A stretch of 64,000 nt of DNA from Chaetoderma sp. LZ-2023a (lineage: Eukaryota; Mollusca; Caudofoveata; Chaetodermatida; Chaetodermatidae): assembly GCA_034401795.1 (NCBI GenBank), contig CM067360.1, positions 117,494,572-117,558,571 on the forward strand. Reading direction: 5' to 3'. The translations under genes were made by a program, and so were the position numbers. The notes under the pieces are model-generated. The model was given only the letters and a program-made list of their open reading frames with translations. It did no database searches and was not told the DNA's origin. Every line of letters starts with the position of its first letter. Position 1 is the first letter of the stretch. This document shows positions 21,936 to 64,000 of the stretch, piece after piece.

Positions 21936-22680
21936 GGCGGCGACATCTGGCAGACAATCTCGTGTGGCAGCGCTGAGATTCGGCCACGCTGACACAATAC
22001 AGCCCCTTTTCGCTCGGCTTGGGTTGTTCTGCGATCAGATGGCGCCAAACGGAAACAACTGGCAGAGCAATACTAACAGACAATGGCGGACAAGCAGGAT
22101 ATCATCATTCGCATCTAATATCGCATTCTTGATCTATGATTGTAGTGGAACACCCCATCTTCGCGTGCTCGTCAACGAACAACCGGTTATTATGCCTGGT
22201 TGCACCGATCAACTCTGTCCGATTGCAACTGCGCTGGGGCGTGTAGGGCAGTGGGCGGAACAGTGTAATTTCCAGCAAATATGTGGCCCTGTCGGGGGTC
22301 AGAATTACGATCCCAATATGGCTATGTCCCCCTATCCTAATAATAATCCCTTATCAGGCAACGACCCGAACCAGCAAATTCAGTACCCGCAGAACCCAAT
22401 CGGCGTTGGAGTGAACCAGTACTCGACCCACCAGTGCCCCACTAACAATATGGTCATGAATAATGGCGGCATTAATCCTATCGGCAATACTTTTGTCAAC
22501 ACCAATCCCCTCATCAATAACCCGAACACAATGCAGCGAACATTCCCGGTCAACAATCAAGTGTTTTCAGATGAATTCAATTCCGGTCAGAGGCTGGGTT
22601 ATAAACTTCTTCCGGTCTGTCTAGTTACCTTGCTGATCACACGTGCATTGAGGGATCTGATCTGTCGCACAAGTATCTAA
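21936..22680 (+). CDS. MINPP1: MINPP-type phosphatase, terminal exon with HAD motif and hydrophobic tail
   Basis: Terminal exon of about 248 codons starting in phase 2 after TTCTGCGCAG and ending at TAA 22,680. It carries the proton-donor motif as FGHADT (family: HAE, here Asp), then LFARLGLFCDQMAP, the WRTSRISSFASNIAFLIYDC strand and LRVLVNEQPV, all in family order. A conserved Cys pair follows in QWAEQCNFQQICG. The rest differs from vertebrate members: about 100 residues rich in Asn, Pro and Gln, then a hydrophobic end (YKLLPVCLVTLLITRAL) that could be a membrane anchor or GPI signal instead of an ER-retention tail (inference). A MITE-A copy begins a few bases past the stop. Confidence 0.85.
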
Positions 22681-36701: not shown

Positions 36702-37491
36702 TTACTTGAGTTGTGTCAACTCATGAGAAGAGGTTACCAAAGCGGGACATGATGATGACCAGTTTCTATTAAATTCAATTTTGTCATGTTGTATGTTAGT
36801 TTTACACATGTAACCTATCAATGAACGTTCCACATAGATCCTGTCTAACATTGAAGCTAGCTTACCATCGGTTGAAGAACAAATAAATTCCCAGCCTTCT
36901 GTATTTTCAATGTGATAATTGTCTACCAAGCTTTTATATTTACAAATGTGTTTAAAAGATATTATGAGATGTGTCATTAAAATTAGACCCAGAGTATCTG
37001 TCTTTAGCCTCATCTAATATATAATTAAAGTCACTGCCCATAATTAGGTTTCATGCGTTCTGTCTAGAATTATTTTGGAAACATCATTTAGAAATTCACG
37101 GCGCAATTGATGAGAGGTTGGTGCATAAAGGCACAACAAATTTAAACTTGTGTTTAGTACATCAATTGATACACAAATATATCGTCCATTTATATCTGAT
37201 GACGACGATATAACGTCAACAAAGTTGAGGCAGCGAGGTAGGATAAGAATGGCCACTCCCGCACTATTATCTCGTGATAAAGAATACAAAAATCTGCCCT
37301 TTTGAAATATCTTTGAGAGATTCATATACCCCAGGTTTTTGAATTTTGGTCTCGTGTAGAAAAGCAATATCAACTCTCTCATTTTCTAATTCTTCAAGCA
37401 AGTGGCGCTGCTTTAATTCGGTGTTTAATCCTCTACAATTGATGGTACATATAATCATAATTTGTACAATGATGTTTACAAGCGCCATCAT
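36702..37491 (-). pseudogene. LINE C ORF2 start (AP endonuclease)
   Basis: Frames in sequence: IICTINCRGLNTELKQRHLL with FLHETKIQ (catalytic Glu), then DNSAGVAILILPRCLNFVDV and LNLLCLYAPTSHQLR. Next is the badly shifted GGDFN-equivalent region, then SSTDGKLASMLDRIYVERSL. The ORF2 ATG (37,491-37,489) overlaps the ORF1 stop TGA (37,490-37,488) in ATGA. Confidence 0.8.
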
Positions 37492-38820
37492 TTGGAAAAA
37501 CTGATTTGGTTTTTAGCTCGTTTCTTAGACCATTTACCTAATTTATCTGCGAGTTCAATGTTTCCTAGTTCTACCACAGACAAATATTCATATTTGGAAA
37601 TATCAGAATCATGGCGCAGTAGACGATATTTAACTCCTCTCGCCGTTACGTATGGTACTAACACTTCACCACCTGCTGATCGGTACATTGCCATTTCATC
37701 TTTCATCTGTGAACTCTGTGTTGAATAGACATGTCTGATACTGTAACTGACATTGTATCATCATCCATATCATTTTCCTCAATAACAGATTCTGAGCTAT
37801 TGTCTTCTTTATGGCACTCATTGCCACTTAAGTTACTTTTGGCTGGAGCATCATTTACCAAATCTTCAAAGCTTATAGGAAAATCGGCTGCATTTTCCGT
37901 ATTCTGAGACCTAAATTTATCCTGTCCTAATTTTAACTCATCTTCTAACGATTGTAATCTGGCTCTTCTGCAAGATCGTCATTTTTCTGCGTTTCTTCTA
38001 CATCCACGTTTGGCTCCACTGCATTTTGATTATTTTCTGAGGTTAAAATTATGCCCTCCTCTATTACTTGAATTTCATCAACTGCAGTTACTTTAACAGG
38101 AGTTGACGATTTGTTTGTGTCATTTTCAGTGGCATGAACCTCGGCAGTAGCTTCCGTAGCGATTGCCACAGAAACAGTTGAGTCAGTTGCATTCTTTAAT
38201 GGTGGATTGCCTTCGGGCAAGGCAGTCGTGTTCTGTCTTTTTGGACAGCGACATTTAAAATTGTCAACTGGACCACAGAGCAGATATTTGTTTCGATTGG
38301 GACAATCTGTTGCCAGATGGTCAGTACGTAGGCAGATCCGTCACACTAATTTGCCCTCTATACCACACGAGCAGGACGAAACTGTCTCCAGCGTCAATCT
38401 GTTTAATAAAGGACTATCCACTTTTAAAAAACCAGATGCGTCTTACACCGTTTTCTAGCATCCTGTCGAAGGGATATGTTTCTCGTTCAATCTTTTGCAC
38501 TTTGCCGTACATTTTCAGTTCATTCATAATTCCGTCACATGGAATTTCTAGTGGAACTTTCATCTTCACTAACAACCTATCTGACTCGATTTCCTCTACA
38601 TTACATACTTCATCTTTCACAATAAGAACATCTTCTAGCAGCTTCTCCGTGATACCTTCATTTGACACTGTTCAGTTTTCGTAATATTAATGAGACCGTG
38701 CAAAATAGCAGGTCCCGCACCAACCACGTCATTTAACCCATGATACACGTCAATTCCAGTGACACCCTGCCCATTAGTTGTTATGTTAAGGCTGAGGGTA
38801 CGTTTGTATTCGGTTGCCAT
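37488..38820 (-). pseudogene. LINE C ORF1 (nucleic-acid-binding protein)
   Basis: Broken homologue of ORF1 in LINEs A and B: start MATEYKRTLSLN, then VEEIESDRLLVKMKVPLEIP, then a degraded zinc-knuckle region. Next comes the acidic linker with VDEIQVIEEGIILT and the C-terminal block SAGGEVLVPYVTARGVKYR. Several frameshifts. Confidence 0.8.
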
Positions 38821-39522
38821 TTGATATTACGGCGCAATGGCAATCATTAAAGCAATATGGCGTATCAGGTTAAACGTTAAAATAACGCCACTTTAAAACG
38901 CCTGGTCAGTATAAATACACACTAAACTGCCATAATGGTTATCTATAGAGACCACTAAGCCTAGATTCAAACAAAATTACCAACACGCAAAGAGCTAAAC
39001 ACTAATAAATTAGCGTCCCGTTTAGAACGTGCGATCCACTGGCAAATATCCGGCGATATTAACAGCCGTATATTCGTCAGTCTAATCATGTTGACCGTCT
39101 TCAGGTAACTGGTGTAGCTTAAAATCGTCAACGCTCTGAACTAACAAATTGATTAACTAACAAAAGATTTGTCCGCCAAAATGTCAACTATAAATGTCCC
39201 CCCTGATAAAGCATTGTTACTAATAGAACCATTCAAAATGAACAACGGGGACGGGCCGAATCTTGACAAAAGAAAAAGAGAAACGAGTATGCTCAGTGAT
39301 CAGCAAAAATGGCTAACCACAGAGGCGATTTTAGCTTTCAATCTGAAAACTCAGGTCACGATTGCGACTTCATACAATCAAGCACATACACACAGAGAAG
39401 AAATAAGGAAACTACATGCAGGTAGAAAACCAACTGAACAAAAAATATGTACATAAGCTTACAAGAAACTAGTAATACGAGTAGATAGCGTAGATCTAAA
39501 AACAAGTCTTTTGGCTTTGAAA

Positions 39523-39576
39523 ACTACTACTACTGCTGCTGCTGCTGCTACTGCTGCTGCTGCTGCTACTACTACT
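39523..39576. repeat. (TAC)n/(TGC)n microsatellite at the LINE C 5' end
   Basis: About 18 triplets, mixed CTA and CTG. Directly followed by GGGT and GGAT tetranucleotide runs (39,577-39,635). Confidence 0.9.
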
Positions 39577-39635
39577 GGGGAGGAGGGTGGGTGGGTGGGT
39601 GGGTGGGTGGGTAGATGGATGGATGGATGGATTGG
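39577..39635. repeat. (GGGT)n then (GGAT)n
   Basis: GGAGGAGGGTGGGTGGGTGG passing to AGATGGATGGATGGATGG. Confidence 0.85.
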
Positions 39636-39776
39636 CGGATTGATGGATATGTATGGCTGAGAAGGATCAACGAATGAACCCCATATTACTGTAAATTCGT
39701 AGCTATCTTGAACAGCTGGGGTATCCAGTCATTACAATTTCAGTTCCTACAAACTACATTCAAATGTCCGGCCATC

Positions 39777-40013
39777 TTAGCCCTTTGTGATCTAGATTGA
39801 CCGGATAAAATTGATATTTCTGCTTGCTGTAGGTCAAACTGATTCCCGTGAGAGATACATCATTTTGTAAAAGATTATCCACTGTAATGACTGGCCTGAC
39901 CGTCGAGCACGGCATTCCAAGGTTACATTTTCAAAAAATAATATAAGGAGCTGCACATAGATATTCCTCAAGACCATGCAGTGATTTTGACCGCCAGGTC
40001 TCTGAAGAGTTAA
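39777..40013 (+). mobile_element. MITE-B copy 8, degenerate
   Basis: TTAGCCCTTTGTGATC at the left, CTGAAGAGTTAA at the right; internal AATGACTGGCCTGACCGTCG, GGTTACATTTTCAAAAAAT, and CTCAAGACCATGCAGTG. Confidence 0.6.
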
Positions 40014-40451
40014 TCTAACAAGCCATTCATATAAAGGAAATCTAAACAAAAGAGGCTATTTATCACATTCGTGTGTTGTCACTAAGCTCCACCACCCCAC
40101 CTCGCCCATCCTGCTAACTTAGAAACTACAATGGTAGGGACAATTTTGTGGAATGTTTGCTTATCTAAACGCTTATACAGGCGCTATCAGAAATTAATAG
40201 GACTAATTTAAATCTTTAAAATGATCAAAATACAACGAATTGCTCTTTGAATAATTTGACTGAAATTATTGCTATCATATGTAATACTGAGCCTAATGTG
40301 TTGAATGTTTTTGCCCTAATTTGACCAGAATTAATTGTGAACTCAAACAACAATACCATTCAGTCTAATTGTGTTAACACATTTTTCTCAAAATTCTTTG
40401 CACAATTATTTTGAAATTAACTTCAGAACTATTTTCAATTTTCCTCAAAAT

Positions 40452-40838
40452 CAGTAAAGATCAGCGGGCGTAGTAGCATTTGGGTAGTATAATACATATA
40501 GTCGGCAGAAAAATTTCAGAAAAATTAATGGCGCTCTTGTTTACATTTTCAATTTACTTTATTGTAAGGTTTTGTAAATTACCATTCAATCCATGTGTGG
40601 TAGTAGGCCCGTGTGGCGAGTGCAACTATTCAACAAATGAAAAGTGACTCGTCAATCAATGACAAATAAGTCAATCATTGACGCCGGTGGGCTGAGTCTT
40701 TAAAGATCAGCGGGCGTAGTAGCATTTGGGTAGCATAACATATATAGTCAGCAGGAAAATTACAGAAAAATAGATGGAAATAGATGGCGCTCTTGTTTCC
40801 ATTTTTGATTTACTTTGTTGTAAGGTTTTGTAAATTAC
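40452..40838 (-). repeat. Duplicated 3' UTR segment of LINE A
   Basis: A block of about 135 bp beginning AAGATCAGCGGGCGTAGTAG occurs at about 40,456-40,585 and again at 40,702-40,838, offset by about 246 bp. The intervening 40,594-40,695 block (GTAGTAGGCCCGTGTGGCGA ... CAATCATTGACGCCGG) has two relatives in the LINE B 3' UTR (47,440-47,545 and 47,587-47,695). Confidence 0.8.
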
Positions 40839-41068
40839 CCGGGAACAAATAACCCTATAAAACTCTGTGCAAATTCCTAAAATTACCTGGGACAATTTTA
40901 TAATTCAATGGCAACTTACTTTATCGATTGATTATTAAATTACCCCAGTCTGTTTATTTGTTAACATGAATTATTAAACATAACAATAGCAAAGTGCAGA
41001 CTAAAATGAATTACATGACACAGATTAATTAAAAGACACAGATAAATCAGCTGTAGTAATTAAATGAT

Positions 41069-44000
41069 TTAAGCTAGTGCAGGCTCATTTATTTTTACAG
41101 CTCCCAACTCTATTGAAACTATGTTTGTTTTGCACCATATGTCCTCGAATACTTTTTCTTTACCATGCTGCTTTAATCTAAAATATTCGCAAGGAATATG
41201 ATTCAGCAGCAATGAACGAAATATTGCCTTTATTGCTCTATTGTGATTGCCCATAGATGGATTTTTCGTCTGTGCACACCGATGTTTCCAAATGGCCCAA
41301 ACACCTATGGTTAGTATTGTTATTAAAATAGTCCTTTCAGACTTTATGATATTTACACGGCTTGATCCAAATTCTCTAAATAAGACTACATGCGTGTCTA
41401 GAACAATGGGCTTCGCTCCAAATTTTGCCAAGATTTGGCTGATATAGTCCCAAAATTGTGACGATATTGGACATTCCACAAATAAATGCTCGATTGTTTC
41501 CTCGTCTGTTTGACATAAGTAACACCTATCAGAAGTCGTAATATTGCACTTGTATGTCAAGTGTCCCACCCATAGCCGTCGATGTAGTAATCGCCACAAT
41601 AAATCACGAGCCATATTTGGTATGTATGGAGAATGTAAGATTTTCCATACATTTTTCCAACTGGATGGTTTAAAGCTTGAGTCATCCCATCTCCTAATTG
41701 CTATGGGAGGTGTTACTTGTTTTCGTCTCATAATATGGTACCATTCCTTGGATCTCATCTTGTATTTTAACATCTCATCATCAAGAACTAATGCGGGTTG
41801 TGGAGTCAAACTACTATTATTTACATTTGGCAGACGAAACCATTCAATTGGTACAGCATGATTTATTTATTTAGCAACCGCTGGACATCTATATGCCTCA
41901 TATGTGTTTTTCTAGCTACTTCTTGCATTGAAATCCATCTACGTGTTTGAGGGTGTATCATATCAGATAAATGTTGAATGCCATATTTTGCAAAGGACGG
42001 TAGATAAAGTACTGCATTGTTATAACATATATTACTATTGCCCCACAATTGCTGTTCTAGTACTTCCTTCCAGCACGTAGGTGGAGGCATGTATCTGTCA
42101 AATATTTCTAACTCCTTAACTTGATCTTTAAACACATCTGGTATCATTTGGCTATTCGGAGGTGGCTTCTTTGAGGTAAAAACATGCTCCGCCAGAAATG
42201 GTTCTACAATTCTCTCCATGAGAGCTCGTGAAACACATGCCCACGTCTCATCTGATGTAATAAGATCATCCAAAAATTTTAACCTTAAAGAAACACATTT
42301 CACTTTAATATCAATTAAATCAAGTCCTCCTTCTAACTTAGCATTATTGAGAACACGATGGGAAACTAAATGATTCTTTTCTTCCCATATGAATGACAAT
42401 ATCAACTCATTAACCTCCTTTTCTACATGTTTTGGCATGTGTACAACAGATGCTGTATACCATAGACCAGATAATGCCAAGTTGTTGACAACAAACACTC
42501 TACCAAAGATTGAAAGACGACGACGCTTCCAATTTGCTAATATTCTCTTAAGCTTAGATACTCGTTCATTCCAATTTTGTATTGTATTCGGTTTCCTGCC
42601 AAAATAGATGCCTAAAATCTTAATGGTATCATTAGACCAATTGATTTCAAGTGGCTGGTCATTCCGCTCTTTCCATGGCCCCAAAAATAATCCTTTGGAT
42701 TTTCCTTTATTGATTTTCAAACCAGATGCATTTTGGAACTTTTCTAGTACGTGGTTTAAAATTGCAAAATCATTGTTTGAACTGGTAAACACAGTTGTGT
42801 CATCAGCATATTGTGACAGCTTAAGTGGTCTTTCTATGCCACGAATACATATGCCTTGAAAGTTATTATTTTGCCTCAATGCTATGCCAAGTGATTCCAT
42901 CACAATAACAAATAATAATGGCGATAGGGAACATCCCTGTCTAACCCCACGTTCTAAGACAATTTCTCTGGATAATTGATTGTTCACTAAATAGCTACTC
43001 TTGATATCCGTATATAAAATCTTAACCCATTTAATAAAGTTTGAGCCTAACCCAAACGATTGCAAAGAATTAAAAAGAAAATCCCAATCCACACGGTCAA
43101 ATGCCTTTTCATTGTCCAAGGCAATCACAGCTGAAGGGATGCTATCCTTCTCAACCAATTGTATAAGGTCTCTTATTACCATGGTATTGGTTAGAATTGT
43201 CCTCCTGGGTACAGCACATGTCTGCTCTGTTCCAATGATTTCTCCTAAAACACTACCTAGTTTCAATGTTAGTGCTCTGGATATTATTTTGTAGTCTACA
43301 CATAGTAGAGAAATTGGTCTGTAGTTCTGAATTAGACTTCTGTCATTTCCTTTATATATTAGCCTTACGTATGCCCTAGCCATAGTTGGTGGTAAATGGC
43401 CTTTCTAAAAAATTTCAGTGCCCAATTCTTCCATTATTGGATCTACAAGGTGCCAAAACGTTTGGTAAAATTCAACTGGAAGGCCATCACACCCCGGTGA
43501 TTTTTCTAGTTTCATACCTTTAAGGGATTTAGTTAAATCTTCTAGTGTTAAGGGTTGATCACAAAATTCACTGCCTGTGTCTGACACCTTTTTGTCTATA
43601 TTTGCTAACAAATCCAATTTTGCATCTTCATCAATTCCCTCTGACTTGTACAATGACTCATAGTAATTGCATACAATAGTACTCATTTCATTGTTGGTAA
43701 AGATGGTTGAACAATCCGGCATGTTTAATGAGCACATCACCTTATCTATTGCCCGTGCTTTTCTAATGTGCAAAAATATCGGGTTGGCTTTCCCCCGTCT
43801 GCGTGCATCTGGGCTCTTGCTCTAATTTTTGCACCCTCAAACTCATATTGTTCTATATCTCTTATTTTACTTTTAATTTTAACCAGTAATTCATAATAAT
43901 TATCTTCACCATTATTTACTTTAGCATTAGTTTTCATCAGTGATCGATGAAGTGTTTTCTTGCGTTTGCGTATTTCCTGTGCTTTTCTAATAGCATACTT

Positions 44001-44930
44001 TCGGGAAACGTACTTTAAATCCAGTTTTACATCCTCCCACCATTGCAATGTGCTCTTATATGATGCTTTCCTATTAATCCAATGTTGCCAACAACTCTCT
44101 ATATTATTCTTATAAAATTCTTCTCCCAACAGTGTTGTGTTTAATTTCCAAAACCCGACCCCTTTTGTTACCCAGTCAGCATTGGCAAAGGCTACACAAA
44201 CCATGTTATGATCGGAGAATGCAACTGGCTTAATATTAACATCTCTCCAGTACCCTGTTAACAAACTATTCACATAAATTCTGTCGATCCTTGAACCAAC
44301 TTTACCATCTACCGAAAACCATGTAAGATCTTTACCATGAGGTTTTGATATTCTATAGGTGTCAACTAAATTTTCATTATCACATATTTCTTTTAAGAGT
44401 CTATGTGATGTATCAGTATAAGTTGAAGTTGCATTCCTGTCATTTTCTTTGTCTATGACACAATTAAAGTCACCACCCATTACTAAGTTTTCAGTGATGT
44501 TATCTAGTGATGTTTTAGACATCTCCTTAAAAAAATTATGACGTAGTTGATGAGATGCAGGTGCATATATACACAGCAACGTGATACGTGTTTGTTGTAT
44601 ATCTAGAGTGACTCTCACCCAGCGACCATTTGCACCTGATACTGAAGAGATTATATTTACATAGGCTGAACAACGAGGGAGTATAACAATTGCTACGCCT
44701 GCACTATTATCTTGAGATAACGAATAAAATATTCTGGATCCAGAAATCTTTTCTAAATTATCGTATGATTCTGACTTCCGAATTTTTGTTTCCTGTATCA
44801 AAGCAATGTCAATCTGTTCATTTTTCAGAGTCTCTAGTAAGTGACGTTGCTTTATGTCACTATTTAAGCCTCTACAATTGAGTGTGCAAATTAGCATAAA
44901 AGGTAATAAAATGCTGTGTAAAACCGCCAT
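41069..44930 (-). pseudogene. LINE A ORF2: AP endonuclease, reverse transcriptase, CCHC finger
   Basis: About 1,280 codons overall. Endonuclease 44,930-43,750 is intact: LNCRGLNSD (Asn), LIQETKIRK (Glu), GGDFNCVID, DRIYVNS, and FSDHNMV. A frameshift near 43,760 separates it from the next piece, which has GAKIRARAQ-type linker just upstream and SPGCDGLPVEFYQTFW. A TAG near 43,400 interrupts the frame. RT then reads through 43,383-41,863 with VIALDNEKAFDRVDW and QYADDTTVF, both catalytic blocks present. A frameshift near 41,850 precedes the C-terminal piece with RDLLWRLLHRRLWVGHLTYK and the finger CYLCQTDEETIEHLFVEC. Normal stop at 41,069. Confidence 0.88.
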
Positions 44931-45008
44931 TATTAAGCTAACAAGATTTTGTTTTTTTCGACCCTCTCCTAGACCATTTACCTATTTTACTCACAAACGC
45001 TGCATTAC

Positions 45009-46345
45009 TTAGCTCAACTTTTCCAAATGCTTATATTTTAATATATCTGAATCATGACGCAGATGCCTATATTTAACACCATTTGCCGTCACATATGGAA
45101 CTAACACCTCTCCTGCCTCTGACCTGTACATGACCATTTCATCAGGTGATTTAGAACTCTGTGTTTGAATGGATATATCAGATTCAACGACTGACATATT
45201 ATCGTCTTCTATATCACTTTCCTCTATTTCTGATTCAGAACTCTCTCCATCTTTCTGTCGCTTTGTTCCACTCAATCGATCCGAGACACCAATTACTTTC
45301 TCTATATTATTTAGATCGTCTAGATTGAGTGTACTCAGTGGAAAATCAAAGTTAGTTTCAGTATCTTGCGACCTGAATTTTACTTGTCCTAAATTAAAAC
45401 TCTCTTCCAGAGGGTATTGATCATCATCTTCAACTTGTGTGGAATTAGCCTCTCTGTCATCAAACTTGGATTGACTTGTTACTGGAGTAAGACTTAGCCC
45501 CTCATCTAGAACCTCTATTTCATCGCCTGCTACTACAGCGATTGGATTCTTAGTTTTTTCCCCATGCTTCTCATTAACATGGACTTCAGCTACAATCTCA
45601 GCAACTACTGGTTCGATGACATTTTCCTTAGCAACGTGCTTCCCATTAGTATGGATTTCAGCTACAATCTCAGCAGCTACCGGTTCTATGACATTCTCTT
45701 TAGAGACAACTTGCTCTGCACTTTTATCAGCACCCTTTTTGACATATTTGTTCTGCGGGCATCGCCACTTAAAATGATCAGATGATCCACAAACTAGACA
45801 TTTGTTTTTGTTAGGGCAATCTGTTGCAAGATGTTCTGTGCTTAAGCAGATTCTACACTCTTTGATTTGCCCCTGTACCATAATGGCAAGATAAATCGAC
45901 CATCTATGGTGACCTTGCTTGGGAGAGGTTGCTCTACCTTTTCAAACCAAATTCTTCTGATGCCATTTTCTAAGGTTCGATCAAATGGATAGGTCTCGTG
46001 TTCTACTTTGTCCACTTTGCCATACTTGATCAATTCAGTGATAACCCGTTCATCTGGGATCTCTAATGGAACCTTCATCTTGACTAATAGACGATCAGAA
46101 TCTATTTCCTCCACATTACACACCTCACCCTTCACGACAAGGACCTCGTCGAGCAACTTTTCCTTCACACTTTCATTAACTACGGTGACATTCCATACAG
46201 ATTTGGAAACATTAACGAGACCTTGAAGGACCCGTGGCCCTGCCCCAACTACATCCTTCAACCCATGATACACCTCAATTGCTGAAATACCCCAAGCCTT
46301 TGTCGTGATTTTAAGACTCAGGGTCCGCTTATATGAGGTTGCCAT
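45009..46345 (-). pseudogene. LINE A ORF1: RNA-binding protein with two zinc knuckles
   Basis: Starts MATSYKRTLSLKI at 46,345. The first 160 residues include an RRM-like region with IDSDRLLVKMKVPLEIPDER and GIRRIWFEKVE. A frameshift at about 45,880 leads into two perfect CX2CX4HX4C knuckles (CRICLSTEHLATDC and CLVCGSSDHFKWRC). An acidic, Ser/Glu-rich stretch and GEVLVPYVTANGVKYRHLRH follow. A second frameshift near 45,020 ends the frame early; the expected tail (KIGKWSRRGSKK) is visible in another frame to about 44,945. ORF1 would coat the element RNA. It overlaps or nearly overlaps ORF2. Confidence 0.85.
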
Positions 46346-47027
46346 GGTGTTTTATAAAAAGACGAACCCCATCCTACTACAATATATAATACAAATATAT
46401 AACACCAAGACGTCGGGGAAAGAGCTAAACACTAAATAAATAGTGTCCCCTTTTGAAACCCTGACGTCTACCAACAAATATACGAATAGAGAGTACAGTC
46501 GTATATTTGTTAGTTTGAACCACTTTCTAAGTGGTTCACTAACACCTAACCGATTAAAGTGGTTTCCTAATGCATACTAACATATTACAGTCATATATTT
46601 GTTAGTCTGTTCGAGTTGACCGGGGACAGCCAACTGACTATAAGGATTTATATCGTTAAAGAACTAGGCTTGTGCTTACAAATGACAAAGGAATTAAATC
46701 CACTCACTCAAGCGATCTTGCCAAATATAATGCGCTAGCCTACGAACTATAGAAATAGCAGACTGGCGCAGCGAGAAATGTATTGCATTGACCACAGTAA
46801 GAGGATCCCTACTAAATGGCGGAAACCGCCAGCTAAGAGGAATGCCTTTAGAAAATGGAGACACAAAATGCGCTCCAACCAAGACAAGAATTTACAAATT
46901 AAACATAAAGTTTGAAAGGAAACACTAATACGAAATATATGTATAAAATTTATCTACAAAATCGCGCTAGAAACTAGCAAATTCGGGCAGCAATTGCAGA
47001 GCTAAATAAACGCGTGCGTTCACTTCG

Positions 47028-47028
<1 letters not shown>
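46346..47028 (-). promoter_or_regulatory. LINE A 5' UTR
   Basis: 683 bp, the same length as the LINE B 5' UTR and nearly identical to it along its whole length. It contains hairpin-forming inverted words (AACAAATATACGA with TCGTATATTTGTT; GAACCACTT with AAGTGGTTC). A LINE 5' UTR normally holds the internal promoter; no specific site is recognised. Confidence 0.7.
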
Positions 47029-47114
<86 letters not shown>

Positions 47115-47153
47115 ACTGCTACTGCTACTACTACTACTACTAGTACTAGTACT
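47029..47153. repeat. (TAC)n/(TGC)n microsatellite between LINEs B and A
   Basis: About 41 triplets. On the minus strand it joins the LINE B poly(A) end (47,154-47,169, A-rich with one G) to the first base of LINE A. Confidence 0.92.
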
Positions 47154-47689
47154 TTTTTTCTTTTTTTTTGAAAATCCGACGCTGACGCAGTCGGACACAC
47201 CTCACGGAGGAACTCCTTTAAAAAGGCTTGCAAACCCCCATAAAAAATCGGGTGAAATAGCAGGCTTTATTAATAGCATATGAATAACAATACAAACTTA
47301 ACATATCAAAACAGTGCAAGCTAAAATACTCTATTACCATATACCACACCCATGGCATAACTACATAGAAAAGAAACCCTAAATAAAGAGCTGATAACAT
47401 AATATAATTCAACAAAGCCATTACTGTTTGCACACCGTGTAGTAGTAGACCCAAACGGCGAGCATAGTTACCCAATACTTTGTACATTGACTCATCAATA
47501 ATTAGCAGTAAGTTACTGCTACTCATTGACACCATTGAGCCGATTCATGACCGGCATGCTAAGTAGATCATATGCAGTTCAACGTAGCACACCGTATAGT
47601 AGTGGGCCCAAATGACGAGTGCAGCTCTCCAACTAGTGGCGAGGTGACTCGTCAATACGTAGCAAAAGGTTGCTCATTGACGCCAGTTG

Positions 47690-50600
47690 GCCGGTTCTTA
47701 CAAGTTCTGCTTCTGCTATTTTTAGATATCCATGTTCAATTGATACTATGCCAGTTTTGCACCATATATCTTTAAATCTACTTTATTTTCCATGTTCCAA
47801 TAGCCTTTAAAATTCACAATGAATGCAGTTTATCAACAATTACCTAAATATAGCTTGTATGGCTCTTCGGTGGTTGTTTCCTGTTTTATCTATGACCTCT
47901 GAACACCGATGTTTCCAAATGGCCCACACTCCTACAGATATCAGGGTTATTAACAATTCTTTCACCTTGCTATTAATGATTCGTCCGATAGTTGAGCAAT
48001 CTTTGAACATAATTGTTTCAGCCATTATTTTCACATATTTGATTCCAAATTTAGCAAGGAGCATATTGATATATACCCAAATGCCTTTATCTATACAACA
48101 CTGTGTAAACAGATGGTCTATTGTTTCCTCCTCGGTATTACATAATAAACACCGGTCTGTACTTGTTATTTTGCACATATAAGTCAGATGGCCGACCAAG
48201 AGCCTTCGATGGAGTAATCGCCATACCAGGTCCCGTGTGTTTGCTGGTAGACAAGGTAGATGTATTGTTTTCCACGCATTTTTCCGGTTCTTTGGCGTGC
48301 ATCCTAAAGTGTTCGAATGCCTAACGGCAACAGGAGTCTGTCTCCGACTTTGCATTAGCATTCCATACCAGGCTCTAGATGCCATGTTGTATTTTATATG
48401 CTCTGACTTAAATACTAATGTTGGTTGCAATATATCTCTGCTGCCACGTGCTTTCGGCAATTTGAACCATTCACCAGGTATTGCATTCTTTATTCTAAGA
48501 AATAAGCGTTGGACATCAATATACCTCATTGATGTTGCTCTTGCTACATCCTGCATCGCGATTCATTTGCGAGATTTTGGATTAACTAAATCACGTAAAT
48601 ATTGAATGCCATTTTTGGTCATATAGGGCAAATATAATACAGCATCATAACCACGAATCAACTCGTTGCCCAAAAGACGTTGCTCTAAGGCATCTTCCCA
48701 ACAACTGGATTGTGGCATTGATCGTGTAAATATCTTTAGAGCTTCGAGTTGTTCTTTATATACGTTTGGTATCTTCTGATGGTTAGGTGGCAGTTTATTA
48801 CACACAAATAAACATTCTACTGGAAATGGATCTACGTACCTTTGTAGAAGTGTTCTTGCAACACTTGACCAAGATGAGTTTGAGGTGAGTAACCTATTCA
48901 AGAATTTCAGTTTTAGCGAAGCAATCTTTGCTAACACATTAACCAACTCCAGGCCTCCATCATGCTTTTCATTGGTGAGGTTTGACTGCGATACTAAATG
49001 GGCTTTGGCCTCCCATAAGAAGGACAAAAGTAATGTGTTGATCTTTGACTCTACTGATTTGGGCATATGAACTACAGAAGCGGTATACCACAGTCCAGAT
49101 AAAAGTAAATTATTAAGGACAAATGTCCTGCCAAATACAGTTAGGCTACGTCGTTTCCAATTTACTAATTCACACTTTAGCGTGGATAGCCTTTCTTCCC
49201 AGTTTATTATTACATCCTGTTCTCAACTAAAGTAAATACCCAAAATCTTTATGACATCATCTGACCAGTTAATATCCATAACATTGTCAGTTCTGTCCTT
49301 CCAAGCGCCCAAAAATAATCCCTTAGATTTGTCTCTGTTGACTTTAAGCCCTGATGCCTTTTGAAAATACTCCATTTAAAATTCTAAAATCTGAATTTTA
49401 CCTGCAAACACAGTCGTATCATCTGCATATTGAGACACCTTTAGTGGTCTTTCTACGCCACGTATACATATTCCTTGAAAATCATTACGTTGCCTCAATG
49501 TAGCCCCAACGATTCCATAGCTATGACGAATAGAAGCGGAGACAATGAGCAACCCTGTCTGACACCTCGTTCCAACACTACAAGTTCAGATAGATGATTA
49601 TTTACTAAATACCAACTTGTTATATCAGTATATAAAATATTGACCCATTTAATAAATCTGGAACCAAAGCCAATATGATCTAAAGACTTAAACAAGAAGT
49701 CCCATTCAAGTCTGTCAAACGCCTTCTCGTTATCAAGTGCTATTATTGCTGTTGGGATGCAATCCTTTTCAACTAATTGAATAAGGTCTTGTATAAGCAA
49801 TGTGTTGTTTAATGTCGTTCTTCCTTGTACAGAGCACGTTTGATCATCATGAATTACTTCGCCTAGGACTGCGCCAAGTTTTAATGTTAGTGCCGAGTAA
49901 TAATCTTATAGTCTACACAGAGTAGAGAGATTGGTATATAATTCTGATTTTTATTTCTGTCACCCCTCTTGTATATAAGCCGAACATATGCTTGGGCCAT
50001 CGATGGAGGGAGATGCCCTTGCTTAAAAATTCTAGCTGCTATTTCTTCTAATACTGGGCCAAATATGTGCCAGAATGTTTGATAAAATTCGACTGGAAGT
50101 CCATCGCAGCCAGGAGACTTTTCTAACTTCATACCTTTGAGGGATTTTGTCAAATCATCAATTGTTAGTGATTGGTCACAACTTTCGCGACATGCATCTG
50201 GAAGTCTTCTCGTTATATTAGCTAAAATATCTCTCATCGCAGTTTCATCACATCCCTCAGATTTCTACAATGATTTGTAAAATTTGTATACTGCTTCCAT
50301 CATCTCTGCATTTGAGGACACTGATACACCATCATTAGTCGTCACTGAGCGCATTAATTTCTCTATACCTCTTGCTTTTTCCAAGTTACAAAAGTAACGT
50401 GTAGGCTTTTCACCTTCGGTGTGCATTTGTGCTCTTGCCCTTATTTTGGCCCCATCAAACTGATAATGCTCTATTTCATTTAGTCTACCTTTTAATTTAA
50501 CTAATAGTTCGTAATAATTATATTCTCCATCATTAATTTTCTTATTAATTTTACACACCGACCACTGAAGCGCCTTTTTACGCTTTCGCATTTCTCGTGC

Positions 50601-51489
50601 TTTCCTGATGGAATACTGCCTTGAAATATGTTTCAGGTCGGATCGTTTCATCCCAATGCCTCCAACAACTTTCTACACATTTGCGAAAGCATCTATCTCG
50701 TAACAACGCTACATTGAGTTTCCAAAATCTATCTCCTCGTTTGATCCAGTCAGCATTGTCTAATGTGGTGGAAAACATATTGTGATCAGAGAAAGTTACT
50801 GGTTTTATGTTAGTTTTACATGTAACCTGTCAATGATCGTTCTACATAGATCCTGTCCAATCTGGATGCTTTCTCTCCACCAGTTGAAGACCAAGTCCCT
50901 GCCCTCTGGATTTTCAATCCGATAAGTGTCTAACAAGCTTTTATATTCACAGATGTGTTTCAAAATATTATGAGATGTGTCATTAAAATTAGACCCATCG
51001 TTTCTGTCTTTAACTTCATCTAATGTGCACTTAAAGTCACCGCCCATAATTAGGTTTTCTGGCGTTCTGTCTTGAATTATTGTGGAAACATCATTTAGAA
51101 ATTCACGACTCAATTGATGAGAGGTAGGTGCATAACGGCACATCAAATTTAAACTTGTGTTGAGTACATCAATTGATACACAAATCCATCGTTCATTTGT
51201 ATCTGATGACGACGATATGAGATCAACATAGTTGAGACAGCGGGGCAGGATAAGAATGGCCACTGCTGCGCTATTATCTTATGATAAAAACCTGCCCTTT
51301 TGAAATATCTTTGAGAGATTCATACACTTCAATTTTTTGAAATTTGGTCTCTTGTAGAAAGGTAATATCAACTCTCTCATTTGCTAATTCTTCAAGCATG
51401 TGGCGGTGCTTGAACTCGGTATTTAATCCTCTGCAATTGATGGTGCAGATAATCATAATTTGTAAAATGATGTTTACCACCGCCATCAT
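47690..51489 (-). pseudogene. LINE B ORF2 (endonuclease, RT, CCHC finger), many breaks
   Basis: Same architecture as LINE A ORF2, split into at least eight open pieces. Readable: IICTINCRGLN with FLQETKFQ, LIMGGDFK, GAKIRARAQMHTEGEKPTRY, SPGCDGLPVEFYQTFW, IALDNEKAFDRLEW, RGVRQGCSLSPLLF, and YADDTTVF (about 49,410-49,435, intact). The C-terminal finger reads CLLCNTEEETIDHLFTQC. A stop at 47,840 cuts the last residues, which remain readable to about 47,690. The start ATG at 51,489-51,487 overlaps the ORF1 stop in TAATG. Confidence 0.85.
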
Positions 51490-52766
51490 TAGATTAACTT
51501 GATTTTTTTAGCTCGTTTCTTAGACCATTTACCTAATTTGCCAGCGAATTCAATGTTTCCTAGTTCTACCGCAAACAAATATTCATATTTGGAAATATCA
51601 GAATCATGGCATCTCACCGTTACATATGGCACTAACACTTCACCCCCTTCTGATCGGTACATTACCATTTCATCTTTCATCTGTGAACTCTGTTTTTGAA
51701 TGGACACATCTGATTCTGCAACTGACATTGTATCATCATCCATATCATTTACTTCAATCTCAGATTCTGAGCTATTGTTTTCTTGATGACGCTTATTGCT
51801 ACTTAAGTTACATTTGGCAGGAGCGTCATTTACCATATCTTCAAGCTGAGTTAAATCATGTGAGATTAGCGGAAAATCGACGAACTTTCCGTCTTCTGAG
51901 TCCTAAACTTGTCCTGTCCTAATTGTAATTCATCTTCTAAGGAATTGTAAACTGGCTCTTCTGTAAGATCATCATTTTCCTGAATGGCTTTTACAGCCAC
52001 GTTTGGCTCCACTGTATTTTGATTATTTTCTTGACTTAAGATTATACCCTCCTCTAATACTTGAATTTCATCAACTGTAGTTACATTAACAGGATTAGAT
52101 GAGTTGTTTGTGTCATTTTCAGTGGCATGAACCACAACAACAGCTTCCGTAGTGATTGCTCCAGAATCATTTGACTCAGTTGCATCCTTTAATGGGCGAT
52201 TATCTCCTGATACAGAGCAAACATTTCTTTCGATTGGGACAATCTGTTGCCAAATGGTCAGTACTTAGGCAGATCCGGCACTCTTTAATTTGCCCTCTAT
52301 ACCATAAGGGCAGGACAAAGCTGCCATCAAGAGTCAATCTGCTTGGTAACGGGGTATCCACTTTATCAAACCAGATGCGTCTTACACCGTTTTCTACCGT
52401 TCTGTCAAAGGGATACGTTTCCCGTTCAATCTTTTGCACTTTGCCATACTTCTTGAGTTTATTCATGATTCTCTCATCTGGAATTTCTAGTGGAACTTTC
52501 ATCTTCACTAGCAACCTATCTGACTCGATTTCCTCTACGTTACAAACTTCGCCGTTTACAATAAGAACATCTTCTAGAAGCTTTTCCGTGACCCCCTCAT
52601 TTGACACTGTTACATTCCATACAGTTTTAGAAACATTGATAAGCCCCTGCAAAGCATCAGGTCCCGCGCCACCGACGTCCTTTAACCCATGATACACGTC
52701 GATAGCCATAACACCCCACCCCTTAGTTTTAATCTTAAGGCTTAGGGTACGCGTATAGGTTGTCAT
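51489..52766 (-). pseudogene. LINE B ORF1
   Basis: Starts MTTYTRTLSLKIKTKGWG at 52,766. RRM-like region to about 52,300, then the first zinc knuckle CRICLSTDHLATDC is intact, while the second is lost where the frame breaks after CLLCIRR. Further pieces: VDEIQVLEEGIILSQENNQN and the C-terminal GGEVLVPYVTV ... GKLGKWSKKRAKK. The stop TAA is at 51,491-51,489. Confidence 0.83.
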
Positions 52767-53449
52767 GGTGTTTTATAATATCAAGGAAAACCATACTACT
52801 TCAATATATAATACAAAAATATAACACCGAGACGTCGGGGAAAGAGCTAAACACTAAATAATGAGTGTCCCCTTTTGAAACCCTGACGTCTACCAACAAA
52901 TATACGAATAGAGAGTACAGTCGTATATTTGTTAGTTTGAACCACTTTGTAAGTGGTTCACTAACACCTAACCAATTAAAGTGGTTCCCTAATGCATACT
53001 AACATATTACAGACATATATGTGTAGTCTGTTCGAGTTGACCGGGGACAGCCAACTGACTATAAAGATTTATATAATCAAAGTACTCGGCTTGCGCTTAC
53101 AAATGACAAAGGAATTAAATCCACTCACTCAAGCGATCTTGCCAAATATAATGCGCTAGCCAACGAACTATAGAAATAGCATACTGGCGCCGGGAGAAAA
53201 GTATGGCATTGACCACAGTAAGAGGCGACCTATTAAATGGCTGAAACCGCCAGCTAAGAGGAGTGCCTTTAGAAAATGGAGACACAAAATGCGCTCCAAC
53301 CAGGATAAGAATTTATAAATTAAACATAAAGTTTGAAAGGAAATACTAATACGAAATATATGTTTAAAATTTATCTACAAAATCGCGCTAGAAACTAGCA
53401 AATTCGGCCAGCAATTGCAGAGCTAAATAAACGCGTGCGTTCACTTCGG
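52767..53449 (-). promoter_or_regulatory. LINE B 5' UTR
   Basis: 683 bp, collinear with the LINE A 5' UTR and over 90% identical by eye; clearly different from much of the LINE C 5' UTR. It ends against (TAC)n at 53,450. Confidence 0.7.
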
Positions 53450-53511
<62 letters not shown>

Positions 53512-53539
53512 GCTACTGCTACTGCTACTGCTACTACTG

Positions 53540-53584
<45 letters not shown>
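53450..53584. repeat. (TAC)n microsatellite before the second MINPP exon
   Basis: About 45 triplets, mostly CTA with a few CTG. It lies between LINE B and the MINPP-like exon; a remnant (TGCTACTACTACTCTGTAG) serves as the pyrimidine-rich end of the intron. Confidence 0.93.
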
Positions 53585-53619: not shown

Positions 53620-54286
53620 AGCCGCACCAACAGATTACAATCTTTTGGCAGCGCTGAGACTCGGTCGCCCTGGCACTCCCCAGGCTCTGATCGTTCGACT
53701 TGGGTTGCTCTGTGATCAGGCACCGTCAATTGGAACACGATGGAAAAGCAACATGGGCGGACACTGGCGAACAAGCAAGATACCATCACTCACTTCGAAC
53801 TTCGCATTCTTAATATATGATTGCTTTGAAACACCCAACCTTAGTGTACTCGTCAATGAACGGCCAGTTATTAAGCCTGGATGCAGACATCAAATCTTCC
53901 CGTTGGCGACTGAACTTGGACCGTTAGGCCCATGGACAGATCATTGCAAGTTCCAACAAATGTGTGGTGGTGCTGGTTTTCTAAATTACAGCCGTGCCCA
54001 AGCATTTCTTAATCCAATTAAACTAATTCCAAGAAAGGTTACGATCCAACCATTTCTAAATCAGTTCAGAAATCAAATTAGCCTTGGTGTGAACCAATTC
54101 CTGCATTATAAGTGCACTCGTTCAGTCCCCTACAGTCGGCCTAGTACTTATCCTGGTGACAACTCCACATTTCCTAGATCACTCCCTGTCAACAAACTTG
54201 ATCAGTTCACTTACAGGCAGCGAGTGTATTACAGTTTTCTTTATATCGGTCACGTTTCCTTTCTGATCGCATATATATTTCTATGA
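53620..54286 (+). CDS. MINPP1: MINPP-like terminal exon with lost active-site motif
   Basis: Paralogue of the 21,936-22,680 exon, entered by the same type of phase-2 acceptor (CTCTGTAG at 53,619). Matches run throughout: LAALRLG, IVRLGLLCDQAPS, HWRTSKIPSLTSNFAFLIYD, LSVLVNERPVIKPGC, and the Cys pair in DHCKFQQMCG. The FGHADT motif has become LGRPGT, removing the catalytic His and acidic residue. Even so, the frame is open for about 222 codons to TGA 54,286. It ends in a hydrophobic segment (FLYIGHVSFLIAYIFL), as in the other copy. Either a non-catalytic paralogue or a recently dead exon. The matching upstream exon was not found in this window. A protein reading through the microsatellite (poly-Leu) is an artefact. 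Confidence 0.75.
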
Positions 54287-60164: not shown

Positions 60165-63100
60165 ACTAAAAGGAATAACGAATAACGAATAAAGAATAAC
60201 GAATAAAGAATAATGAATAAAGAATAACGAATAACGATTAAAGAATAACGAATGGCACAGAATAACAGCCATTTTACAGGGAATAACTCGGAATAACAGA
60301 CATATTATATGGAATAACATATTATAGCACCCATTTTATATGGAATAACACGGAATAACAGCCATAGTAAATGGAATAACATGTAATAACAACCATTTTA
60401 TAAGGTATAACACAGAATAACAGCCATTTTATATGGAATAACACGGAATAACAACCATAGTAAATGGAATAACATGTAACAACAACCATTTTATAAGGAA
60501 TAACACAGAATAACAGCCATTTTATATGGAATAACACGGAATAACAACCATAGTAAATGGAATAACATGTAACAACAACCATTTTATAAGGAATAACACG
60601 GAATAACAGCCATTTTATATGGAATAACACGGAATAACGGACATAGTAGATGGTATAACATGGAATAACAGCCATTTTATATGATATAACACTGAATAAC
60701 AGCCATTCTATATGGAATAACACTGAATAACAGCGATTTATATGGAATAACTCGGAATAACGGCCATATTAAATGGAATAACATGGAATAACAGCCATTT
60801 TAAATGGAATAACATGGACTAAAGGCAATATTAAATAGAATAACGAATAACGAATAAAAAATAACAAATAACGAATAAAGAATAACGAATAAAGAATAAC
60901 GAACAATGAATAACGAATAACGAATAAAGAATCACGAATAATGAATAACGAATAAAGAATAACGAGTAATGAATAACGAATAACGAATAACGAATAACAC
61001 AGAATAACAGCCATTTTATATGGAATAACTGGGAATAACAGACATATTATATGGAATAACATATTATAGCAGCTATTTTATATGGAATAACACGGAATAA
61101 CAGCCATAGTAAATGGAATAACATGGAATAACAGCCATGTTATAAGGAATAACACAGAATAACAGCCATTTAATATGGAATAACACAGAATAACAACCAT
61201 AGTAAATGGAATAACATGGAATAACAGCCATTTTATGAGGAATAACATGGAATAACAGCCATTTTATATGGAATAACTCGGAATAACGGCCATAGTAAAG
61301 GGAATAACGGCCATTTTATGAGGAATAACATGGAATAACAGCCATTTTAAATGGAATAACATGGAAGAAAGGCCATATTAAATGGACTAACGAATAATGA
61401 ATAACGAATAAAGAATAACGAATAAAGAATAACGAATAACGAATAACGAAAAAAGAATAACGAATAACGAATAATGAATAACGAATAATGAATAACACAG
61501 AATAACAGCCATTTTACATGGAATAACTCAGAATAACAGCCATATTATATGGTATAACATATTATAGCATCCATTTTATATGGAATAACATGGAACAACA
61601 GCCATAGTAAATGGAATAACATGGAATAAGAGCCATTTTATAAGGAATAACACAGAATAAGAAAAATTTTATATGGAATAACACGGAATACCAACCATAG
61701 TAAATGGAATAACATGGAATAACAGCCATTTTAAATGGAATAACATGGAATAACAGCTATTTTATATGGAATAACTCGGAATAACGGCCATAGTAAAGGG
61801 AATAACAGCCATTTTATAAGGAATAACATGGAATAACAGCTATTTTAAATGGAATAACATGGAATAAAGACCATATTAAATTGAATAACGAATAATGAAT
61901 AACGAATAAAGAATAACAAATAAAGAATAACGTATAAAGTATAACGAATAACGAATAATGAATAACGAATAACGAATAATGAAAAACACAGAATAACAGC
62001 CATTTTACATGGAATAACTCGGAATAACAGACGTATTATATGGCATACCACGGAATAACAGCCATTTTATAAGGAATAACATGGAATAACAGCCATAGTA
62101 AATGGAATAACATGGAATACCAGCCATTTTATAAGGAGTAACACAGAATAACAGCCATTTTATATGGAATAACACGGAATAACAACGATAGTCAATGGAA
62201 TAACATGGAATAACAACCATTTTATAAGGAATAACACGGATTAACAGCCATTTTATATGGAATAACACGGAATAACGGCCATATTAAATGGAATAACATG
62301 GAATAACAGCCATTTTATATGGAATAACACTGAATAACAGCCATTTTATATGGAATAACACGGAATAACGGCAATATTAAATGAAATAACATGGAATAAC
62401 AACCATAGTAAATGGAATAACATGGAATAACAACCATTTTATAAGGAATAACACGGAATAACAGCCATTTTCTATGGAATAACACTGAATAGCAGTAATT
62501 TTATATGGAATAACTCGGAATAACGGCCATAGTAAAGGGAATAACAGCCATTTTATATGGAATAACACGGAATAACAACCATAGTAAATGGAATAACATG
62601 TAACAACAACCATTTTATAAGGAATAACACAGAATAACAGCCATTTTATATGGAATAACACGGAATAACAACCATAGTAAATGGAATAACATGTAACAAC
62701 TACCATTTTATAAGGAATAACACGGAATAACAGCCATTTTATATGGAATAACACGGAATAACGGACATAGTAGATGGTATAACATGGAATAACAGCCATT
62801 TTATATGATATAGCACTGAATAACAGCCATTCTATATGGAATAACACTGAATAACAGCGATTTATATGGAATAACTCGGAATAACGGCCATATTAAATGG
62901 AATAACATGGAATAACAGCCATTTTAAATGGAATAACATGGACTAAAGGCAATATTAAATGGAATAACGAATAACGAATAAAAAATAACGAATAACGAAT
63001 AAAGAATAACGAATAAAGAATAACGAACAATGAATAACGAATAACGAATAAAGAATCACGAATAATGAATAACGAATAAAGAATAACGAGTAATGAATAA

Positions 63101-64000
63101 CGAATAACGAATAACGAATAACACAGAATAACAGCCATTTTATATGGAATAACTGGGAATAACAGACATATTATATGGAATAACATATTATAGCAGCTAT
63201 TTTATATGGAATAACACGGAATAACAGCCATAGTAAATTGAATAACATGGAATAACAGCCATGTTATAAGGAATAACACAGAATAACAGCCATTTTATAT
63301 GGAATAACACAGAATAACAACCATAGTAAATGGAATAACATGGAATAACAGCCATTTTATGAGGAATAACATGCAATAACAGCCATTTTATATGGAATAA
63401 CTCGGAATAACGGCCATAGTAAAGGGAATAACGGCCATTTTATGAGGAATAACATGGAATAACAGCCATTTTAAATGGAATAACATGGAATAAAGGCCAT
63501 ATTAAATGGACTAACGAATAATGAATAACGAATAAAGAATAACGAATAAAGAATAACGAATAACGAATAAAGAATAACGAATAACGAATAACGAATAATG
63601 AATAACGAATAATGAATAACACAGAATAACAGCCATTTTACATGGAATAACTCAGAATAACAGCCATATTATATGGTATAACATATTATAGCAGCCATTT
63701 TATATGGAATAACACGGAATAACAGCCATAGTAAATGGAATACCATGGAATAACAGCCATTTTAAATGGAATAACATGTAATAACAACCATTTTACAAGG
63801 TATAACACAGAATAACAGCCATTTTATATGGAATAACACGGAATAACAACCATAGTAAATGGAATAACATGTAACAACAACCATTTTATAAGGAATAACA
63901 CGGAATAACAGCCATTTTATATGGAATAACACGGAATAACGGACATAGTAGATGGTATAACATGGAATAACAGCCATTTTATATGATATAACACTGAATA
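60165..64000. repeat. Hierarchical satellite array, open at the window edge
   Basis: The base unit is 31 bp: GGAATAACACGGAATAACAG followed by CCATTTTATAT, with variants ending AGTAAAT or TTTTATAA. Successive variants form a 93-bp trimer in places (about 60,428-60,613). Stretches of 7-bp GAATAAC/GAATAAA units interrupt at 60,170-60,250, 60,838-61,000, 61,385-61,490, 61,880-61,985, 62,960-63,120 and 63,510-63,615. A block of about 1,170 bp starting near 60,422 recurs 2,124 bp downstream (about 62,546-63,714). Because 93 is a multiple of 3, minus-strand frames stay open and give hydrophobic repeat peptides; these are not genes. Confidence 0.93.

Follow-up and report, generated by a model that had tools for sequence, protein, structure and literature searches.

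Among long interspersed nuclear elements (LINEs), L1 targets a short degenerate TT/AAAA site, and Tx1 of Xenopus targets another transposon. Open reading frame 1 (ORF1) of the Tx1 clade has RNA-binding and CCHC domains, and the NeSL clade is characterized by an endonuclease of the restriction-like type. In fish, the Tx1-group LINEs Kibi and Koshi were reportedly described by Kojima and Fujiwara in 2004 with the microsatellite targets (TC)n and (TTC)n. PMC4640811, in which the work of Kojima and Fujiwara is cited, places the Tx1 clade among the three groups holding the majority of target-specific families and treats the (TG)n-specific Togen families of fish among families related to NeSL. Kibi is used as a reference element in PMC4746887, and Tx1 of Xenopus appears as a target-specific LINE of the L1 clade in PMC3747384. 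Here, a 64-kb stretch of the genome of the mollusc Chaetoderma sp. LZ-2023a (contig C2, positions 117494572-117558571; this whole stretch is referred to as the window) was analyzed together with a genome scan covering 2,438,752,110 bp in 2,753 contigs. The window holds three LINEs, A, B and C. Comparison of their junctions across the genome indicates that they represent a group of L1-like LINE families with an apurinic/apyrimidinic endonuclease (APE) that very probably integrates into (GTA)n microsatellites.

All three LINEs of the window lie on the minus strand, and each starts flush against a (TAC)n/(TGC)n array. The arrays, to which no strand is assigned, were delimited with Tandem Repeats Finder (TRF) and from the sequence. 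One borders the 5' end of LINE C (39522..39577), one links the 3' end of LINE B to the 5' end of LINE A (47028..47152), and one borders the 5' end of LINE B (53450..53584, degenerate to ~53612; TRF period 3, score 235). The preliminary description had noted TAC/TGC triplets against all three 5' ends, and the boundaries were indeed located at 39521|39522 for C, 47027|47028 for A and 53449|53450 for B. It had also seen the A-rich 3' end of LINE B joined to an array that touches LINE A. This was confirmed: the A-rich tail (47153..47169, minus strand) is followed directly by GTA-type triplets and runs into the 47028-47152 array, the far end of which is the 5' end of LINE A, so that B and A stand head to tail. 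Its proposal of a TAC-repeat target holds in that the repeat is present at both ends of the element, but the unit on the LINE sense strand is GTA, not TAC. Runs of at least six TAC/TGC units were confined to the three LINE-associated places in the window, and none was present in two stretches of ~10 kb flanking it (L009, L010). Genome-wide, exact (TAC)7 had 1,116,026 start positions (552,771 + 563,255), compared with 98,283 (49,726 + 48,557) for the reversed pattern. The repeat is thus ~11-fold commoner than its reversed form and an unusually abundant microsatellite in this genome.

For family A, 5' junctions were collected with the first 328 nt of the LINE A 5' untranslated region (UTR; 46346..47027, minus strand, delimited by alignment to LINE B). 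From 486 first-look candidates, 40 were scored, each of which matched at 99-100% over the whole query, and 30 were fetched. GTA-type repeats stood flush with the 5' end in 30/30 fetched copies (window copy L011 included), and the final six array letters were AGTAGT in 28 of them and AGTAGC and AGTGGT in one each. The copies appear young, with 24 of the 30, picked by score, at least 98.5% identical to the 5' UTR in the window. Because the fetched copies were the top-scoring ones, exact matches to the 27-mer at the 5' start were also counted. They occurred at 1,435 places genome-wide (737 + 698), and those of the reversed control at 0. Following genomic order, the first 40 of these matches, all on contig C1, were taken as an unselected set. 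GTA triplets were flush in 40/40, with the junction GTAGT|CG in 38 copies and GAAGT|CG and GTAGT|CA in one each; under a stricter rule of at least three uninterrupted GYA units, 36 of the 40 passed. Family B was read at the expected 5' end in 20 of the 30 loci that had been fetched by their 3' end. A complete 5' UTR start with visible flank was found in 10 of the 20, and an array lay within 15 bp in all 10. Among the other loci, L080, L083, L092 (which has N) and L093 gave no match, L077 holds a minisatellite, L090 was partly N, and L086 had no flank. Of 40 scored family C copies, 20 were read in rank order with the window copy excluded, and GTA-type units were found at the 5' end in 20/20, as long arrays in 16 and as short or degenerate ones in four. 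As a separate observation, GTA triplets also precede a sequence (TTTGGCTCTGCTATTAACG) that resembles the 5' start of one more LINE family, both in L097 and in the L051 right flank; in L051, LINE-like ORF1 sequence comes after it.

The 3' junctions of family B were surveyed with its last 262 nt (1,909 first-look candidates, 40 scored, 30 fetched). An A-rich tail followed by GTA-type triplets was present in all 30 fetched copies, including the window copy (L045), and a run of at least five GTA/GCA units lay near the 3' end in 27. In a pattern search, the first unit pair after the tail was GTAGTA in 26 copies and GTGGTA, GTAGTG, GTGGTG and GTAGCA in one each. For family A, the end of the element was reached in 15 of 20 3' regions, with GTA in 15/15 (only about three units in L097). 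GTA repeats were found on both sides of all 17 copies that were readable among 24 tried, L041 and L043 included; L028 and L029 share their left flank, which leaves 16 independent copies. An A-rich tail preceded the flank in each of these 17 copies as well. In a set of 20 unselected 3' regions, the 3' end was readable in six, all with GTA, and seven others begin in GTA-type repeats. LINE A of the window ends ~350 nt short of full family A copies (~6,940 bp, computed) and has no A tail; it diverges from those copies after ~40455. Because it has no 3' end of its own, its missing 3' array is uninformative either way.

The junctions hardly varied in phase (GTAGT|element ... A-rich tail|GTA), with both ends in GTA arrays and GTA on the LINE sense strand. 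Most copies had both ends in one simple repeat and in one orientation, as expected of a microsatellite-specific LINE. More than 80% of flanks in TAC/GTA repeats on both sides had been named in advance as support for targeting. Readable flanks exceeded this share on the 5' side in family A (fetched and unselected copies), family B and family C, and on the 3' side in families B and A and in the unselected set. The pattern that had been named as refuting it, 3' ends in unrelated DNA with TAC repeats at all 5' ends, was not seen wherever a 3' end was readable. In the mechanism that we propose, the endonuclease of the element would nick the (TAC)n strand, and the free 3' end would prime reverse transcription at the A-rich tail beside the conserved 3' hairpin, that is, by target-primed reverse transcription. 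The second cut and the joining would take place inside the same array.

The same junctions could arise if the GTA triplets were part of the element, either as a repeat of its own 5' UTR or at both ends of its RNA, and were carried to any site. In nearly all copies read, the array directly abuts the 5' end at constant phase, and GTA arrays are very common in the genome, as if spread by something; both are consistent with cargo. However, the 3' ends that were read also lie in GTA arrays, and the array itself differs by locus, with uninterrupted 5' runs of 2-524 bp and a composition that varies as well. Family C has the same array despite its very different 5' UTR, and L001, which is the same array as L002-L008, is a bare array that resembles none of the three LINEs. 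Truncated copies speak on both sides. The array is present at the truncation point in the 5'-truncated copies L088 (cut near 5' UTR position 100) and L078 (near position 433) and in a 5'-truncated neighbor in the right, downstream flank of L020, whereas it is absent upstream of the truncated or rearranged copies L069, L070 and L089. On this balance, transport of the triplets by the element is highly improbable. Insertion without any target choice, in which copies land at random and survive or assemble preferentially beside abundant GTA arrays, or in which the junctions are due to chance, would draw on the ~1.1 million (TAC)7 start positions and on the selection by score of many of the copies read. 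It is opposed by the GTA triplets in all 40 unselected copies, by the near-fixed phase, by the single orientation, and by the near-identity of copies, which leaves little time for selection. From the genome-wide counts, the chance of a given junction abutting a seven-unit run in a given orientation was computed as ~1 in 4,400. The probability of this explanation is next to negligible.

Besides the three copies without an upstream array, several observations weigh against integration into (GTA)n arrays. At the 3' end, the family B flanks L051, L053 and L069 have shorter runs only, without a run of five units. Seven of the 24 selected family A 3' regions gave no junction (L042 was N, L044 was rearranged, L101, L109 and L112 lay inside the element, L096 was 5'-UTR-like, and L103 was other DNA), and among the 20 unselected 3' regions five fell in other DNA or within a LINE (for two, the coding sequence of a LINE as judged by eye) and two in N. 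At the 5' end, four family C matches of higher rank were skipped because their starts lay within the UTR. In the family C copies L115 and L116, just two to three degenerate units separate the tail of another LINE from the 5' end, and the array is short in L129 and degenerate in L133. When units shared between left and right arrays were compared in 17 pairs, the excess was modest, with a mean of 3.9 k-mers in matched versus 2.0 in mismatched pairs. In favor of integration into the arrays, L023 and L035 have unusual units, specific to the locus, on either side of the copy; such sharing was clear by eye in two of 17 loci. Long target duplications are only suggested by this comparison.

Because of the polarity of the array, each later insertion into it is expected to stand head to tail with those before it; this would yield the B-array-A arrangement in the window. 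Family LINEs within 1.5 kb were found in the same orientation in 6/30 family A 5' flanks and 2/30 family B 3' flanks, and in the opposite orientation in none; this count includes the window pair on both sides and the flank shared by L028 and L029, and would miss families that have diverged too far from these three. Among 100 listed 5'-start matches there were five pairs less than 8 kb apart, each on one strand by eye. The tail of another LINE lay 11-35 bp upstream in three of the 40 unselected copies (L145, L167, L170), and a second tail type was seen in L145 and L170 and also in L044. Template jumping or unequal crossing-over, rather than separate insertions into one array, might also yield such pairs, as would fit the very short linkers between tail and 5' end (11-14 bp in L167 and L170, about as short in L115 and L116) and two C1 pairs with an identical spacing of 6,962 bp. 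Other linkers, however, are longer arrays. Moreover, LINEs A and B of the window belong to different families, with bodies that share only 46-79% identity per 150-column block as far as the 3' UTR, and they differ in age: A-type copies are mostly >98% identical, and B copies are mostly 92-96% identical to the B copy of the window. We therefore consider these origins improbable for the pairs in general and favor separate insertions, although template jumping may account for some of the cases with very short linkers.

Despite their diverged bodies, families A and B have common termini. In the window, the 5' UTR of LINE B (52767..53449, minus strand) is of the A type, with 640/682 aligned positions identical to LINE A (94%); the family consensus differs at 19/682. 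The conserved 3' terminal tail of LINE B (47170..47242, minus strand) is identical to that of a family A copy at 70 of the last 74 nt and has two predicted hairpins, with predicted minimum free energies of -26.5 (B) and -21.7 (A) kcal/mol. LINEs B and C show the reverse relationship. Their bodies are 76-93% identical in shared blocks (54% in the last partial block at the broken end), whereas their 5' UTRs are 43-55% identical, and the similarity switches near the ORF1 start codon. The 5' UTR of C is distantly like that of A (alignment score -0.5 versus a shuffled mean of -61 and a best of 100 shuffles of -36.5), and the first ~20 nt of C and A, CAAAGCGAACAGACGTGTTT and CGAAGTGAACGCACGCGTTT, are alike by eye. 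The A-type 5' UTR was present in other B copies (15/20 loci), which makes B a chimera at the level of the family. Local gene conversion was ruled out as the source of the common 5' UTR because B copies elsewhere carry it, and purifying selection alone was ruled out because the body of C is near that of B but its 5' UTR is not. Judging from the alignments, A and B are products of modular exchange, with a common 5' UTR and last 74 nt around diverged bodies. The route was likely template switching during reverse transcription. A and B offer a clear example from nature of diverged LINE families exchanging a 5' UTR.

The coding regions were assigned by translation and profile searches, all on the minus strand. 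LINE A (40455..47027) is complete at its 5' end by comparison with full family A copies. The N-terminal frame of its ORF1 lies at 45842..46345. A zf-CCHC (zinc knuckle) match in the neighboring frame 45009-45941 (E 0.0013) scored 19.2 bits, under the Pfam cut-off of 20.8, and no Pfam match to this domain was obtained in the other ORF1 frames scanned (45842-46351 of A and 52200-52772 of B, the latter without any Pfam hit). ORF2 encodes a predicted endonuclease of the Exo_endo_phos type (43746..44981; PF03372 E 1.5e-13), a reverse transcriptase (41863..43404; PF00078 E 4.5e-37) and a C-terminal zf-RVT domain (41069..41866; PF13966 E 2.3e-14). The best PDB match of both enzymes was human L1 ORF2p (E 1.5e-19 for the endonuclease and E 3.2e-39 for the reverse transcriptase), for the latter ahead of R2 (E 4.7e-14). 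By homology, the families are L1-like retrotransposons without long terminal repeats, with an APE-type endonuclease and a reverse transcriptase in ORF2; membership in the Tx1 clade is plausible. One scan of viral contigs returned no relative of the family A reverse transcriptase. An AlphaFold model of the endonuclease frame had a mean pLDDT (predicted local distance difference test) of 35.6 and was not used.

LINE B (47153..53449, minus strand) has both ends, as judged by alignment to A and C, and coding frames split into several pieces. These include the start of ORF1 (52200..52766, from translation, with CCHC-like cysteines by eye) and a C-terminal piece of ORF2 with zf-RVT (47840..48562; PF13966 E 1e-11). 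In one family B copy, a 60-bp segment from the ORF2 region has expanded into a minisatellite (L077, 1-1301; L048, 21-140). LINE C (36788..39521, minus strand) consists of the 5' part only and is broken within the endonuclease region; its homology to B, 83% over the body, stops at ~36788, and its 5' UTR is of a different type. A motif of ~110 nt (GTCAATGA ... TTGACGAGTCA ... CTACTAC) occurs in the 3' UTRs of both B (47420-47710) and A (40600-40711) on the minus strand and may be a structured RNA. Scans of the window with Rfam at the gathering threshold and for tRNAs gave 0 hits. A large satellite built on GAATAAC / GGAATAACA units with a period of ~31 occupies 60173-64000. Two further stretches, 53637-53967, just past the LINE B array, and 21954-22286, beside which no TAC array was seen, are 72% alike.

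A wider reading would join these results. Families A, B and C, together with at least one neighbor family, might form a guild of LINEs that evolves under one common microsatellite target, with crowding in the arrays leading to the trading of 5' UTRs and to common 5' and 3' termini, and with insertions that seed or lengthen GTA arrays and so explain the ~11-fold excess of (TAC)7. We regard this extension as doubtful. By contrast, the description of GTA as a new target for an already known kind of element, the microsatellite-specific LINE, is well supported, and it extends the short list of LINE target sequences by a trinucleotide. With 1,435 exact 5' starts and many near-identical copies, target recognition can be studied by comparing endonucleases between families with and without this target. 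Where one microsatellite is so abundant in the genome, insertion into its arrays may also represent a safe-haven strategy.

No published GTA/TAC-specific LINE was found by titles and abstract openings in the openly licensed literature, a scope that leaves Repbase outside. The nearest described systems each match the present families in part. Human LINE-1 ORF2p is the best solved relative of both the reverse transcriptase and the endonuclease, but L1 uses its TT/AAAA site rather than a microsatellite. Tx1 of Xenopus is, like the present families, target-specific, and it is placed in the L1 clade; by description it is set apart by its target, another transposon instead of a microsatellite. Togen has in common with the present families that it is a microsatellite-specific retrotransposon without long terminal repeats, but it is grouped with relatives of NeSL, whose endonuclease is of the restriction-like kind, whereas the families described here are of the APE type. 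Kibi and Koshi are, as here, APE-type LINEs inside a simple repeat, and the difference, again by description, lies in the repeat itself, reportedly (TC)n and (TTC)n in those elements and GTA in the families of this genome.

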